From Plesiomonas shigelloides (lineage in GTDB: Bacteria; Pseudomonadota; Gammaproteobacteria; Enterobacterales; CAMTGL01): DNA of 64,000 nucleotides. Positions 509-9,204 of the stretch are shown here, one piece after another. Every line of letters begins with the position of its first letter. Positions within the stretch are counted from its first letter, which is position 1. Location of the stretch: assembly GCF_900087055.1 (NCBI RefSeq), contig NZ_LT575468.1:2545773-2609772 (forward strand), read 5' to 3'. Made by a program: the position numbers and the translations under genes. The notes below the pieces were generated by a model. That model was not told the origin of the DNA and did not search any database. It worked only from the letters and a program-made list of their open reading frames with translations.

Positions 509-598
509 GTAAGACGCGCTATTTTGTTGTCATCACATCCCTGAAATTACACACGCAGAGATGTATTTCGGCCACCCCACCTTGGAGTGGCCTTTTTT
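509..598 (+). ncRNA. micA: MicA small regulatory RNA
   Basis: MicA is an Hfq-dependent small RNA, made under sigma-E control, that represses ompA and other outer-membrane protein mRNAs. The 5' part has the AAGACGCGC block, then a GTTGTCATCACATCCCTGAA segment matching the conserved seed region. The 3' end is a GGCCAC/GTGGCC hairpin (570-592) followed by TTTTTT, an intrinsic terminator very like the E. coli one. Position and direction also match E. coli: between luxS and gshA and opposite to both. The end points are inferred by comparison with remembered E. coli MicA; the 5' end is uncertain by a few bases. Confidence 0.9.
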
Positions 599-2739: not shown

Positions 2740-3311
2740 CAGTACAGGGTTCGCACGTCAACCACATCCATACCGGCGCGGCGCGCCGCTTGCAGACCGA
2801 ACTCTGCATCTTCAAAAACCACGCAATGCTGTGGCGCGATGCCTAATTTCTCGGCGCACAGTAAAAAGGTATCTGGCGCCGGTTTATGCGCCTGCACATC
2901 ATTAGCTCCCACCAGAGCCGCAAAATAATCGCGCAGCCCCATATGACGCAACAACGCTTCGGCGACCGCCGTTTCACTGCCGGTTCCCACCGCCATCGGA
3001 CGACGCCCATGATACGCTTTCACCACATCCTCAATCAGGGGTAACGGACGACACAAATCAAACAGCAGCAACTCCACCGCATCGGCTTTTTGCTTAGCGA
3101 TCAGCCGCGGATCCAGATCAGCGCCGTGACGGGTTAAGATCGAGCTGGCGATCTGCCACGTTGGCGCGCCGCTTTGCGAGGCCATAAAGTCCGGCTCATA
3201 CGGCAAACCGTAACGGCCCAACACCTCCTCCCATGCCTGGCGGTGTGCCGGCAAAGATTCAATGATGGTACCGTCCATATCAAAAATCAGGCCTTGGTAG
3301 CGGTCGTACAT
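2739..3311 (-). CDS. yqaB: HAD-family sugar phosphatase YqaB
   Basis: A haloacid dehalogenase-superfamily phosphatase of 190 residues. In E. coli YqaB hydrolyses fructose-1-phosphate and related sugar phosphates. The nucleophile motif FDMDGT (D10 and D12) is near the N-terminus, AVGTGSE is motif II, and FEDAEFGLQAARRAGM is the motif III/IV acidic loop. A helical cap lies between motifs I and II. The gene starts inside the end of the upstream oxidoreductase gene (25-base overlap) and overlaps yqaA by 1 base, suggesting one transcript for the three. Confidence 0.93.
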   Translation of the reverse strand: MYDRYQGLIFDMDGTIIESLPAHRQAWEEVLGRYGLPYEPDFMASQSGAPTWQIASSILTRHGADLDPRLIAKQKADAVELLLFDLCRPLPLIEDVVKAYHGRRPMAVGTGSETAVAEALLRHMGLRDYFAALVGANDVQAHKPAPDTFLLCAEKLGIAPQHCVVFEDAEFGLQAARRAGMDVVDVRTLY

Positions 3312-4300
3312 GGTTCCTCCAATGAAAAAATCAATTTGCCACAGGTGCGACCTCGTTCAAGCTCGCGGTGTGCCTCGGCACCGTCCTGCAGCGGATATTC
3401 CTTGCTAAGCATGATGTGCAGTTCGCCTTGCGCAATGAGCGCCAGCAATGCCTGTAAATCGTGCACATTAGGCTGCGCCAATAAGCCAACCGCCGTTGAA
3501 ATGCCTCGCTCTGCGGCCGCTTGGCAGACTCGCTCAGCGCTGATGGTCGGTAGTGTCAGAACGCGACCGGAGGGTTTCACCCATGTCAAAGCGCGGATGC
3601 CGGCATCGCCGCCCACCAAATCGAACAGGACATCCACCTGCCGTGGCAAAATATCGGCAGCAGTAGGCAACGGTTGCTGATAATCAATGATCTCGTGCGC
3701 CCCTAACTGCTGGGCTAACGCACTTTTTTGTGCCGAACACAGCGCAACGACTTGCGCTCCGGCGCGGCGTAACAGCTGCACCAACACATGACCTACCCCA
3801 CCGACAGGCGCCGATACCAGCACCCGCTCTCCGGGTTGTACCGCCATTTTGCGTACCATCTGCCAAGCAGTGATCCCGGCCACCGGTAAGGCTCCGGCTT
3901 GCGCCAAACTGACGTTATCTGGAACCCGTGCCAGCAATGTATCCGGTACCGCCAAATAACGGCTATACCCGCCGCCACCTTGCACATAACCGGCCACCCG
4001 ATCGCCGCACTGCCATGCACTATCGCTGCTCGCGTGCACAACGGTTCCCGCCACATCAAAACCGGGTACCCAAGGCAAATCATCTTTGTGCGCCTGTGCC
4101 GCCCAGCCTAAACCTGCGCGAGTTTTGGCATCAATCGGGTTAATTCCCGCCGCAGCCACTTGCACCACCACCTGCTGCGCACCGGCCTGCGGCATCGGCA
4201 AGGTTTGCACCTGCAAGACCTCTGGCGCGCCAAAGGCGGTGATCGCCAGCCCAATATTCTCGCCACACGTAAATTCTGCAGCCTGTTGTGATGATGCCAT
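3287..4300 (-). CDS. Zinc-type alcohol dehydrogenase-like / quinone oxidoreductase (MDR family)
   Basis: A 337-residue medium-chain dehydrogenase/reductase. The N-terminal GroES-like half includes GAPEVLQVQTLPMP and VAAAGINPIDAKTRAG; the nucleotide-binding half has the Rossmann loop VSAPVGGVGHVLVQL (about residues 161-175). The zinc-ligand cysteines of true alcohol dehydrogenases are not evident, so NADPH-dependent quinone or enal reduction is more likely. The start is supported by AAGGAGTGACAG just before the ATG. It lies between the tRNA terminator and yqaB, a place where E. coli has no gene, so it may be a local insertion. The substrate is unknown. Confidence 0.85.
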   Translation of the reverse strand: MASSQQAAEFTCGENIGLAITAFGAPEVLQVQTLPMPQAGAQQVVVQVAAAGINPIDAKTRAGLGWAAQAHKDDLPWVPGFDVAGTVVHASSDSAWQCGDRVAGYVQGGGGYSRYLAVPDTLLARVPDNVSLAQAGALPVAGITAWQMVRKMAVQPGERVLVSAPVGGVGHVLVQLLRRAGAQVVALCSAQKSALAQQLGAHEIIDYQQPLPTAADILPRQVDVLFDLVGGDAGIRALTWVKPSGRVLTLPTISAERVCQAAAERGISTAVGLLAQPNVHDLQALLALIAQGELHIMLSKEYPLQDGAEAHRELERGRTCGKLIFSLEEPCTTATKA

Positions 4301-4643
4301 CTGTCACTCCTTCGCTGAATATCTGCTGATCCGTTGCCCAATTGCGGCCATTGCATGGGAGTTGGTCTGCCTGAGCCGCGCCTTACCACCAGAGCCAATA
4401 GGCTTTCACGCCATACAACGCAGGCAGTAGGGTAAAAACGCAGTTACTCTAGCCTAATCCCTGGTTAGATGCAGCTTTCATGCAACAAAACTGCCACTGC
4501 GGTTTAGCCTAAAATCGGTTAATCGCGAACGTAACAAGACAAAAAAAATAAGCGTAGGTAGGGAAATAAGATGAATTCAGAGGGAAAGAGTAAGCGAACG
4601 AAGCCAACAACGCAGCAACTTCAAGTCAGAAGGGTATAAACGC
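4301..4643. other. Gene-free stretch downstream of the tRNA operon
   Basis: No convincing reading frame or RNA gene. It holds the promoter side of the oxidoreductase gene and ends at the tRNA terminator. The run near 4538-4550 is A-rich. No integrase remnant or direct repeat of a tRNA 3' end was noticed. Confidence 0.6.
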
Positions 4644-4670
4644 AAAAAGCCCCGTCAATGACGGGGCTTT
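4644..4670 (-). terminator. Intrinsic terminator of the tRNA operon
   Basis: Read on the minus strand, an AGCCCCGTCA/TGACGGGGCT hairpin is followed by TTTTT, immediately after the last Arg tRNA. Confidence 0.9.
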
Positions 4671-4680
4671 CTACTTTAGA

Positions 4681-4757
4681 TGGTGCATCCGAGAGGATTC
4701 GAACCTCTGACCGCTCGGTTCGTAGCCGAGTACTCTATCCAGCTGAGCTACGGATGC
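4681..4757 (-). tRNA. tRNA-Arg(ACG), stem variant T:A
   Basis: A 77-base cloverleaf with encoded CCA. The anticodon loop CTACGAA gives ACG, expected to become ICG and read CGU/CGC/CGA. The anticodon stem is CTCGG/CCGAG (T:A at the second pair). It is the last gene of the operon. Confidence 0.98.
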
Positions 4758-4832
4758 AAATCTGGTTGGCTGTAACAGCCGTGATACCGATTTATGTCGG
4801 CTTAATGCCGTTCATCACTATCACTTTTTGTA

Positions 4833-4909
4833 TGGTGCATCCGAGAGGATTCGAACCTCTGACCGCCCGGTTCGTAGCCGGGTACTCTATCCAGCTGAGC
4901 TACGGATGC
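4833..4909 (-). tRNA. tRNA-Arg(ACG), stem variant C:G
   Basis: Identical to its neighbours except for a compensated C:G second pair in the anticodon stem (CCCGG/CCGGG). The CCA is encoded. Confidence 0.98.
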
Positions 4910-4992
4910 AAGAGTAACACTTGTGTATCTTATTTATCCAAACTGGCACTAGCAAAAACTAGCGCTTTTAGTATAGCTGCTGCAGGTTGGAA

Positions 4993-5069
4993 TGGTGCAT
5001 CCGAGAGGATTCGAACCTCTGACCGCTCGGTTCGTAGCCGAGTACTCTATCCAGCTGAGCTACGGATGC
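4993..5069 (-). tRNA. tRNA-Arg(ACG), stem variant T:A
   Basis: 77 bases, anticodon ACG, stem CTCGG/CCGAG, CCA encoded. Confidence 0.98.
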
Positions 5070-5148
5070 CCTGCATGTGCTTTACGTTTTACTTTCGTAC
5101 TGTTCAGTTGCTTATTCACAACTGCTTGCGTCATACCTTGATGAAATA

Positions 5149-5225
5149 TGGTGCATCCGAGAGGATTCGAACCTCTGACCGCCCGGTTCGTAGCCGGGTA
5201 CTCTATCCAGCTGAGCTACGGATGC
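5149..5225 (-). tRNA. tRNA-Arg(ACG), stem variant C:G
   Basis: 77 bases, anticodon ACG, stem CCCGG/CCGGG, CCA encoded. Confidence 0.98.
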
Positions 5226-5296
5226 ATAGAGTATTTCATCAACAACATGAAGCAAGGTGCGTGGATTGCTCCACACTGCCATCACAAAACAAAAGA

Positions 5297-5373
5297 TGGT
5301 GCATCCGAGAGGATTCGAACCTCTGACCGCTCGGTTCGTAGCCGAGTACTCTATCCAGCTGAGCTACGGATGC
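5297..5373 (-). tRNA. tRNA-Arg(ACG), stem variant T:A
   Basis: 77 bases, anticodon ACG, stem CTCGG/CCGAG, CCA encoded. It lies 19 bases after the second Ser tRNA in transcription order. Confidence 0.98.
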
Positions 5374-5392
5374 ATCGTGCTTTCGTAAATGA

Positions 5393-5482
5393 TGGCGGTG
5401 AGAGAGGGATTCGAACCCTCGATAGAGTTTCCCCTATACACCCTTAGCAGGGGTGCGCCTTCAGCCTCTCGGCCATCTCACC
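5393..5482 (-). tRNA. tRNA-Ser(GCT), copy 2
   Basis: A 90-base class II tRNA with a long variable arm. The anticodon loop CTGCTAA gives GCT, reading AGU/AGC. Acceptor stem GGTGAGA, CCA encoded. It is base-for-base identical to the copy at 5730-5819. Confidence 0.98.
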
Positions 5483-5525
5483 GAAACTTATAACCCGCCA
5501 ACCTTGGCGAATCATTGATATTAAA

Positions 5526-5602
5526 TGGTGCATCCGAGAGGATTCGAACCTCTGACCGCTCGGTTCGTAGCCGAGTACTCTATCCAGCTGAGCTACGGAT
5601 GC
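5526..5602 (-). tRNA. tRNA-Arg(ACG), stem variant T:A
   Basis: 77 bases, anticodon ACG, stem CTCGG/CCGAG, CCA encoded. Confidence 0.98.
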
Positions 5603-5638
5603 ACAACTTATTTCCCTGTGACCGCATACATTTTGAAA

Positions 5639-5715
5639 TGGTGCATCCGAGAGGATTCGAACCTCTGACCGCCCGGTTCGTAGCCGGGTACTCTATCCAG
5701 CTGAGCTACGGATGC
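5639..5715 (-). tRNA. tRNA-Arg(ACG), stem variant C:G
   Basis: 77 bases, anticodon ACG, stem CCCGG/CCGGG, CCA encoded. It follows the first Ser tRNA after 14 bases. Confidence 0.98.
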
Positions 5716-5729
5716 ATTGCAAATCAAAA

Positions 5730-5819
5730 TGGCGGTGAGAGAGGGATTCGAACCCTCGATAGAGTTTCCCCTATACACCCTTAGCAGGGGTGCGCCTTCA
5801 GCCTCTCGGCCATCTCACC
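5730..5819 (-). tRNA. tRNA-Ser(GCT), copy 1 (first gene of the operon)
   Basis: A 90-base class II tRNA with anticodon GCT and encoded CCA. It is the promoter-proximal gene, as serV is in the E. coli csrA-linked cluster. Confidence 0.98.
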
Positions 5820-5836: not shown

Positions 5837-5864
5837 ATATTACTTTCCCAGCCTTATAAGTCAA
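5837..5864 (-). promoter_or_regulatory. Promoter of the tRNA operon
   Basis: On the minus strand, TTGACT (5864-5859) is followed after 16 bases by TAATAT (5842-5837). A GC-rich stretch GTGCGCC comes right after the -10, as in stringently controlled stable-RNA promoters. The rest of 5820-6121 holds no gene. Confidence 0.65.
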
Positions 5865-6121: not shown

Positions 6122-6307
6122 TTAGTAGTTAGGCTGTTGAGATTTTTCAGCCTGGATGCGTTGGTAAATTTCTTCACGGTGAACAGAGACTTCTTTCGGC
6201 GCGTTCACACCGATACGGACTTGGTTTCCTTTTACACCCAGTACAGTAACGGTAACCTCGTCACCAATCATCAGGGTTTCACCAACTCGGCGAGTCAGAA
6301 TTAGCAT
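6122..6307 (-). CDS. csrA: Carbon storage regulator CsrA
   Basis: CsrA is a homodimeric RNA-binding protein that binds GGA motifs in mRNA leaders and changes translation or stability. The 61-residue product starts [18 protein letters not shown] and keeps the conserved RNA-binding residues L4, R6 and R44. GGAGCAACG precedes the ATG. It sits between the serine/arginine tRNA operon and alaS, as in E. coli. BarA, the sensor that normally controls CsrA activity through UvrY and the Csr small RNAs, is encoded in the same window at 29728. Confidence 0.98.
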
Positions 6308-6576: not shown

Positions 6577-9204
6577 TTACAGACGTTCAGCAACCCATGC
6601 CTGAACACTGTCTAATGCCGCAGGCAATGCTGCAGCATCAGAGCCACCGGCCTGTGCCATATCTGGACGACCGCCGCCCTTACCGCCAACTTGTGCCGCC
6701 AGCATGCTGACCAGCTCACCAGCCTTCACCTGACCCACCAAGTCTTTGGTTACACCAGCAATCAGGCTGACTTTGTCATCCTGTGCCAGACCCAGTACCA
6801 CGATACCGGAACCCAACTGGTTTTTCAGGTCATCGACCATCGTACGTAATGCTTTTGCATCGCCGTTCTTGAGCAGGCTGACCAACAGCTTCTTACCCTT
6901 AACCTCGATAGCATTATGCACCAGATCCGCGCTTTCCTGAGCGGCCAGCTTGTCTTTCAATTGTTGCAATTCTTTTTCCAGCTGCTTGCTGCGATCCAGC
7001 AAGCCACGGACTTTCTCCGCTACGCTGAATGCGTCGGATTTCACCAGACCGGCCGCTTCATCTAGCTGGTCTTGCTGACGCTCGGTAAAGGCAATCGCCC
7101 GCTCACCGGTCACCGCTTCAATACGGCGCACACCTGCAGCTACACCACCTTCAGAGGTAATGCGGAACAAGCCGATATCACCGGTACGCGCAGCGTGGGT
7201 ACCACCACACAGCTCAACCGAGAAATCGCCCATGGTCAGTACGCGCACTTTCTCGTCATACTTCTCACCAAACAGCGCCATCGCGCCTTTGGCTTTGGCT
7301 TCGTCCAGATCCAGAACATCGGTCTGTACGCTGTGGTTGCGACGAATTTCCGCATTCACCAAACGCTCAACTTCACGCAGCTCTTCCGCCTTCATGGCTT
7401 CCAGATGCGAGAAGTCAAAACGCAGGGCATCCGCGCTCACTTGTGAACCTTTTTGTGCCACGTGCTCGCCCAGCACTTTACGCAGGGCTGCGTGCAACAG
7501 GTGAGTCGCTGAGTGGTTCAGACGAATGCTCTGACGACGCGCAGCATCCACTTCTGCTTGCAGCGTATCACCGACCGTTACACTCCCTGACATCAGCTTA
7601 CCGACGTGACCAAAAGCCTGACCGTATTTCTGGGTATCCGTCACCATGAACTCAACGCCATCGGCCAACAGCAGACCGCTGTCACCCACCTGACCACCGG
7701 ACTCAGCGTAGAATGGAGTTTCGTTCAGGACGATGATCGCCTCTTCACCGGCATGCAGTTGCTCAACGCTCTGACCTTCACGGAACAGTGCCACAACCTG
7801 ACCTTGATGGGCGGTAGTGGTATAGCCGTGGAATTCGGTCTGACCGTCAACACGGATCATGCTGTTGTAATCGGCACCAAAGTTGTTAGCCGCCTGCGCA
7901 CGCTCACGCTGGGCTTTCATTTCTTTTTCAAAACCGGCTTCATCAACGGTGATGTTGCGCTCACGGCATACGTCAGCGGTCAAATCCAGAGGGAAGCCGT
8001 AGGTGTCGTACAGTTTGAACGCGGTTTCGCCATCCAGTACGTCGCCTTGCAGGTCAGCCAGCGCACCATCCAGCAATGCCAGACCACGCTCCAGCGTACG
8101 CGCAAACTGCTCTTCTTCCAGACGCAGCACTTTTTCTACCAGTGCTTGCTGCTGTTGCAGTTCATCGGCAGCGCTGCCCATCACGGCAATCAGCGTACCC
8201 ACCAGCTTGTAGAAGAACGTGTCTTTGGCACCCAGCATGTGACCATGACGTACTGCACGACGAATGATACGACGCAGCACATAGCCACGGCCTTCATTCG
8301 ATGGCATAACGCCGTCAGATACCAAGAACGCACAAGAACGGATATGGTCAGCAATTACGCGCAGTGATTTGCTTTCCAGATCGATCGCGCCGGTCACTTC
8401 GGCCGCTTTCGCGATCAATGCTTTGAAGACGTCGATTTCGTAGTTGGAGTTCACATGCTGCATAACCGCAGTGATACGCTCCAGACCCATACCGGTATCT
8501 ACCGATGGCTTTGGCAGTGGCAGCAGTGTGCCGTCAGCTTGACGGTTGAACTGCATGAACACGTTGTTCCAAATCTCGATATAACGGTCGCCATCTTCTT
8601 CTGGGCTTCCTGGAGGACCGCCCCAGATGTGATCGCCGTGGTCATAGAAAATCTCGGTGCATGGACCGCATGGGCCGGTATCACCCATCTGCCAGAAGTT
8701 ATCGGACGCGTACGGTGCACCTTTGTTGTCACCGATACGAACGATGCGCTCTTCTGGAATGCCAATTTCTTTGGCCCAGATGTCATACGCTTCATCATCA
8801 GAGGCGTACACCGTTACCCACAGCTTCTCTTTCGGCAGTGCCAGCCACTGTGGCGACGTCAGGAACTCCCACGCATAGCGAATCGCATCGTGCTTGAAGT
8901 AATCGCCGAAGCTGAAGTTACCCAGCATTTCGAAGAAGGTGTGGTGACGCGCGGTATAACCTACGTTTTCCAGGTCATTGTGCTTACCGCCGGCACGCAC
9001 ACAACGCTGAGAGGTGGTCGCGCGGGTATAAGGGCGCTTGTCCAGACCAAGGAATACGTCCTTGAACTGGTTCATACCGGCATTGGTAAACAGTAACGTC
9101 GGGTCATTGCCCGGTACGAGTGAGCTGCTGGACACCACTTGATGCCCTTTGCTCTGGAAAAAGTCGAGATACGCCTGGCGGATCTCGGCAGTGCTCTTGC
9201 TCAT
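6577..9204 (-). CDS. alaS: Alanyl-tRNA synthetase
   Basis: AlaS charges tRNA-Ala and removes mischarged Ser and Gly. The product has 875 residues (E. coli 876). The N-terminal class II catalytic core includes [22 protein letters not shown] and the GMGLERI motif. The editing domain has HSATHLLH plus CGGTHAART, which together bind zinc. The C-terminal part is a coiled-coil/DHHA1 domain with [14 protein letters not shown]. It lies between recX and csrA as in E. coli and has its own terminator, so it is probably monocistronic. In E. coli AlaS represses its own promoter; I cannot confirm that here. Confidence 0.99.

Follow-up and report, generated by a model that had tools for sequence, protein, structure and literature searches.

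Two base-pair-compensated forms of tRNA-Arg(ACG) in a csrA-linked tRNA gene cluster of Plesiomonas shigelloides

The serV-argVYZQ cluster of Escherichia coli, with alaS and csrA upstream and gshA downstream, opens with a tRNA-Ser(GCT) gene that is followed by tandem tRNA-Arg(ACG) genes. As the initial annotation of the present locus had stated, the E. coli record contains one Ser and four Arg genes; the four are identical and all of the form that we call T below. Two processes that can reshape such repeated genes have been documented: gain of tRNA copies through tandem duplication has been observed in Pseudomonas fluorescens (PMC7661048), and intragenomic gene conversion has been measured for the rRNA operons of E. 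coli (PMC8022953). Here we analyse a cluster of the intestinal bacterium Plesiomonas shigelloides that resembles the E. coli cluster in its place, its first gene and its tandem Arg genes, whereas it contains two Ser and seven Arg genes, the latter in two forms. A search of the literature library used here found no published description of this cluster.

Composition and genomic setting

The window, by which we mean the whole stretch of 64,000 nucleotides analysed, contains nine tRNA genes on the minus strand at 4681-5819 (ARAGORN; Rfam RF00005), and these nine are its only Rfam tRNA matches. In transcription order they read Ser-GCT, C, T, Ser-GCT, T, C, T, C, T, where C and T stand for the two forms of tRNA-Arg(ACG), in agreement with the order and count annotated initially. 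A leading tRNA-Ser(GCT) gene with tandem tRNA-Arg(ACG) genes behind it is the arrangement expected of a serV-argVYZQ-type operon. The features of the locus, in the direction of transcription, are as follows.

6577-9204, same strand as the cluster: alaS, upstream beyond csrA (NCBIfam, 1126.4 bits)
6122-6307, minus strand: csrA, upstream neighbour (NCBIfam, 121.9 bits; reading frame)
5837-5864, minus strand: likely promoter, TTGACT, 16 nt, TAATAT, with GC-rich discriminator GTGCGCC (consensus scan)
5730-5819, minus strand: tRNA-Ser(GCT), copy 1 (ARAGORN; Rfam RF00005, 58 bits)
5639-5715, minus strand: tRNA-Arg(ACG), C form, C28:G42 (ARAGORN; Rfam; sequence)
5526-5602, minus strand: tRNA-Arg(ACG), T form, U28:A42 (ARAGORN; Rfam; sequence)
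5393-5482, minus strand: tRNA-Ser(GCT), copy 2, identical to copy 1 (ARAGORN; sequence; repeat search)
5297-5373, minus strand: tRNA-Arg(ACG), T form (ARAGORN; Rfam; sequence)
5149-5225, minus strand: tRNA-Arg(ACG), C form (ARAGORN; sequence; inverted repeat on either side)
4993-5069, minus strand: tRNA-Arg(ACG), T form (ARAGORN; Rfam; sequence)
4833-4909, minus strand: tRNA-Arg(ACG), C form (ARAGORN; Rfam; sequence)
4681-4757, minus strand: tRNA-Arg(ACG), T form, last gene (ARAGORN; Rfam; sequence)
4639-4677, minus strand: putative intrinsic terminator hairpin, GCCCCGTCA-T-TGACGGGGC, then TTTTT (inverted repeat; 26 nt identical in the sister Plesiomonas)

The sigma-70-like promoter site found by the consensus scan lies directly before the first Ser gene; as the scan returned 4 promoter-like sites where 2.7 were expected, the support for it comes from its position and not from its score. 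Downstream of the cluster are a quinone-oxidoreductase-like gene (3287-4300), a YqaB-type phosphatase gene (304 bits), a yqaA-like open reading frame that has no NCBIfam match, and gshA (767 bits) (all NCBIfam searches). Among named sequences, an uncultured Plesiomonas gives the closest match to the YqaB protein. The resulting synteny, gshA, yqaA-like frame, yqaB, tRNAs, csrA and alaS, has the neighbours of a serV-argVYZQ-type operon on both sides, with the quinone-oxidoreductase-like gene interposed on the side of yqaB, yqaA and gshA. An annotated Providencia record likewise keeps gshA, tRNAs, csrA and alaS together. We therefore assign the cluster to the csrA-linked tRNA operons of the serV-argVYZQ type, with a promoter, a terminator and a single transcript predicted from sequence.

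The only other Plesiomonas genome compared, a fragmented metagenome-assembled genome of a sister species (G001, 75% complete), lacks the cluster, and its contig stops inside the operon terminator. On that contig (L005 1-360, against window 3311-4663) yqaB lies about 330 nt from the terminator, with no quinone-oxidoreductase-like gene between. Elsewhere in the window, the small RNA gene micA adjoins gshA (509-596, plus strand; Rfam, 47.4 bits). Frames of up to 222 codons that run antisense to the tRNA genes on the plus strand (4658-5326 and 5148-5447) encode repetitive peptide and are artefacts rather than genes.

Two forms that differ at one anticodon-stem pair

The four T copies share one sequence and the three C copies another. 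These two sequences diverge at gene positions 29 and 43 alone, which make up tRNA pair 28:42 and are C:G in the C form and U:A in the T form; anticodon, acceptor stem and loops are common to both. Sequence comparison thus upholds the initial description of two forms set apart by a single anticodon-stem pair whose bases changed together. Only these two haplotypes occur at 28:42 and no copy carries an unpaired intermediate, so the joint change of both bases is not due to chance. Family scores are nearly equal (66.7 and 66.6 bits, Rfam) and the tRNAs are intact, and the C and T forms are probably equivalent isodecoders that are charged and used alike. The same pair varies in the Ser(GCT) genes (5393-5482 and 5730-5819), which have A:U at 28:42 as against U:A in most relatives.

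The order of the forms is within chance

The cluster had initially been described as strictly alternating, a reading that does not hold. Neighbouring Arg genes change form at five of six steps, and the two copies that flank the second Ser gene are both T. Among the 35 possible orders of three C and four T genes, seven have at least as many switches (p = 0.2). The last five Arg genes taken alone, T C T C T, form one of ten possible orders. No meaning has been demonstrated for the arrangement C T / T C T C T, whose alternation lies within what chance produces.

Spacers and flanks carry no trace of unit duplication

Duplication of a two-tRNA unit and then of a Ser-containing unit, one of two origins proposed initially, should leave a likeness among spacers of the same type. 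We compared the ten pairs of Arg-Arg spacers against dinucleotide-preserving shuffles, and none was significantly similar; the mean z was 0.8 for spacers of the same type and -0.1 for those of different type. The test does detect such units where they exist, as four of the f21 arrays described below (L158, L186, L193 and L200) and the Val-Lys array of P. shigelloides passed it as positive controls. The twelve bases on each side of the genes were 32% identical between genes of the same form and 36% between genes of unlike form, a result equalled by 29 of 35 label assignments. The sequence match between the two Ser genes extends one base only beyond each end. Gene pitches (91, 113, 133, 96, 148, 156, 160 and 152) reveal no regular unit period, and TRF reported no array. 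The likeness that this duplication scheme predicts is thus absent from spacers, flanks and Ser gene ends.

An old duplication of a T-C unit, of the kind found in Vibrionaceae-like relatives, whose spacers have since become unrecognisable while selection held the tRNAs, is in our view unlikely, though deserving of some weight. Relatives with a like layout (f21, below) do alternate through genuine dimer duplication, the last five Arg genes here alternate, and no pair of Arg-Arg spacers is more alike than the two that lead from T to C (z 2.2, p = 0.054; p 0.03-0.04 under simple shuffles, uncorrected for the number of pairs). However, neither spacers nor flanks are significantly more alike by form, the spacer lengths (71, 79, 83 and 75) do not alternate, and the period is broken at the C T - Ser - T C junction.

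The other origin proposed initially, gene conversion that kept both forms, is consistent with same-form genes agreeing down to their final base amid unrelated spacers; the evidence for it is of this indirect kind.

Arrays of identical 77-mers break short-read assemblies, as the sister-species contig that ends inside the operon terminator illustrates, and a collapsed or mis-joined repeat array could in principle imitate the observed order. Such an artefact is extremely improbable here, because the window lies in a single contig of 3,405,979 bp, equal in length to the genome reported for strain NCTC10360, a PacBio-only assembly with 10-20 kb libraries (PMC5034147), and because the whole cluster spans 1.14 kb with every spacer different.

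Pairing between leader and trailer around each tRNA is not general in the operon (permutation p 0.15), although single genes show it. The C-form gene at 5149-5225 is flanked by a perfect 11-bp inverted repeat (5138-5148 and 5232-5242) that is extended by further pairing; the duplex (window 5120-5260) has a predicted energy of -19.9 kcal/mol (p 0.003), and the next T gene has a weaker one. The repeat at 5138-5242 is possibly a stalk for precursor processing.

Comparison with relatives and with other arrays

E. coli turns out to be a misleading yardstick for the size of the cluster, as other families of the order commonly have two Ser genes together with four to eight Arg genes. Among the genomes sampled, clusters of two Ser genes and at least four Arg genes were seen in families f2, f6, f10, f21 and f23 (the labels f2-f23 are those of the analysis tool). 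Among 117 distinct clusters fetched, a sample that includes the present cluster and is enriched in f21, and so is not a survey, two copies of Ser are present in 27 and more than a single Arg form in 23.

Family f21 comes closest in layout. It is probably Vibrionaceae, because the two forms on a Photobacterium plasmid are distinguished by the acceptor-stem pairs that also distinguish those of f21. Its clusters share the plan Ser-Arg-Ser-(Arg)n, with two Ser genes, four to eight Arg(ACG) genes and often two compensated forms that alternate; these differ at acceptor-stem pairs 4:69 and 5:70, whereas the P. shigelloides forms differ at 28:42. The layout Ser-a-Ser-a-b-a-b-a-b-a is common, with spacers of the same type matching at z mostly 20-40 and spacer lengths that alternate as well (for example, 56/82 and 39/60). 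In f21, then, strict alternation goes with alike same-type spacers and reflects dimer duplication, a signature that is absent from the P. shigelloides Arg cluster. Two compensated Arg(ACG) forms, often alternating, were seen in f21 loci L158, L180, L183-L186, L193, L194, L198 and L200 and in L278, a Photobacterium damselae plasmid; they mostly differ at pairs 4:69 and 5:70. Some of these arrays have forms uncoupled from their spacers, as if shuffled by conversion.

The C form is present in 22 of 295 genomes of the order, P. shigelloides included, and in one more genome of the class sample. In all other C-form clusters examined, every Arg(ACG) gene of known stem is C and the T form is absent, and at 28:42 the named relatives, among them Serratia, Pectobacterium and Dickeya, have T throughout. 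The unusual feature of the present cluster is thus the coexistence of the C and T forms, not mixed forms as such. By the initial annotation's own yardstick, relatives without alternation would count against its pattern, and here the outcome is divided: enteric relatives indeed lack alternation, but f21 has it, through a process of which the present cluster bears no sign.

We also weighed a horizontal origin of the C form and set it aside. One genome (G022) has an identical 77-nt gene, but 77 nt are too short to decide the matter, and the clusters concerned are homogeneous for this form. Viral contigs scanned with a spacer pattern gave no match, and matches in phage and plasmid collections were limited to general tRNA similarity and to chromosomes catalogued as plasmids.

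Two selective readings bear on the coexistence of forms. In the first, selection would keep two functionally different isodecoders in alternation, for instance for decoding, processing or stability; in its favour, a compensated two-form state recurs, at 28:42 here and at 4:69 and 5:70 in f21 and the Photobacterium plasmid. Yet either form appears to suffice, since the other sampled C-form clusters have C alone and most enterics have T alone, the order is no better than chance, and 28:42 lies outside the known identity elements for ArgRS, which are A20, C35 and position 36; we consider this reading very unlikely. It is similarly hard to credit that both forms were kept over the long term, independently in Plesiomonas and in Vibrionaceae-like bacteria, for some advantage, for example protection from nucleases that target tRNA or a slower recombinational loss of copies.

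P. shigelloides itself provides a counterpart to the Arg cluster. A run of 15 tRNA genes in which Val(TAC) alternates with Lys(TTT) (G000 C1:796512-798458, L243) is likewise a tandem array, but consists of two distinct tRNAs, with most units repeating at exactly 266 bp and spacers that are nearly identical, and is clearly a recent dimer amplification. Heterogeneous isoacceptors are found elsewhere in the genome, with more than one sequence in 7 of 35 anticodon classes. Among them is a tandem set of six initiator-like Met genes (G000 C1:1907899-1908598, L254) with three forms in the order 3-4-2-4-3-2, which does not follow the spacers.

Discussion

We think it likely that the cluster is an old, csrA-linked operon expanded for dosage, whose genes are constrained to two compensated isodecoders even as its spacers change. 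An operon of the serV-argVYZQ type would have been enlarged to two Ser and seven Arg genes, and transcription from one promoter ahead of the first Ser gene to one terminator behind the last Arg gene would yield a single precursor RNA, to be processed into nine tRNAs. Because U:A is commoner among enteric relatives, it appears to be ancestral at 28:42; one Arg copy would then have exchanged U:A for C:G, with a U:G wobble pair as the probable intermediate. The C form may have reached three of seven copies either because genes were duplicated long ago or because conversion acted within the 77-nt gene only. Purifying selection, together with the conversion that we infer among the Arg copies, would keep each form identical as the spacers diverge. 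The P. shigelloides genome was reported to have 113 tRNA genes and 11 rRNA operons (PMC5034147), which is consistent with a role of dosage; 112 tRNA genes were recovered in our analysis.

For translation, the practical meaning of this expanded operon is probably only a higher dosage of the tRNA that serves CGU, CGC and CGA codons. The case also shows how chance expectation, spacer homology and relatives can be used to check a tRNA array whose pattern looks strict. Finally, the Arg cluster, with its unlike spacers, set against the Vibrionaceae-like and Val-Lys arrays, with their alike spacers, separates old from recent gain of tRNA copies.
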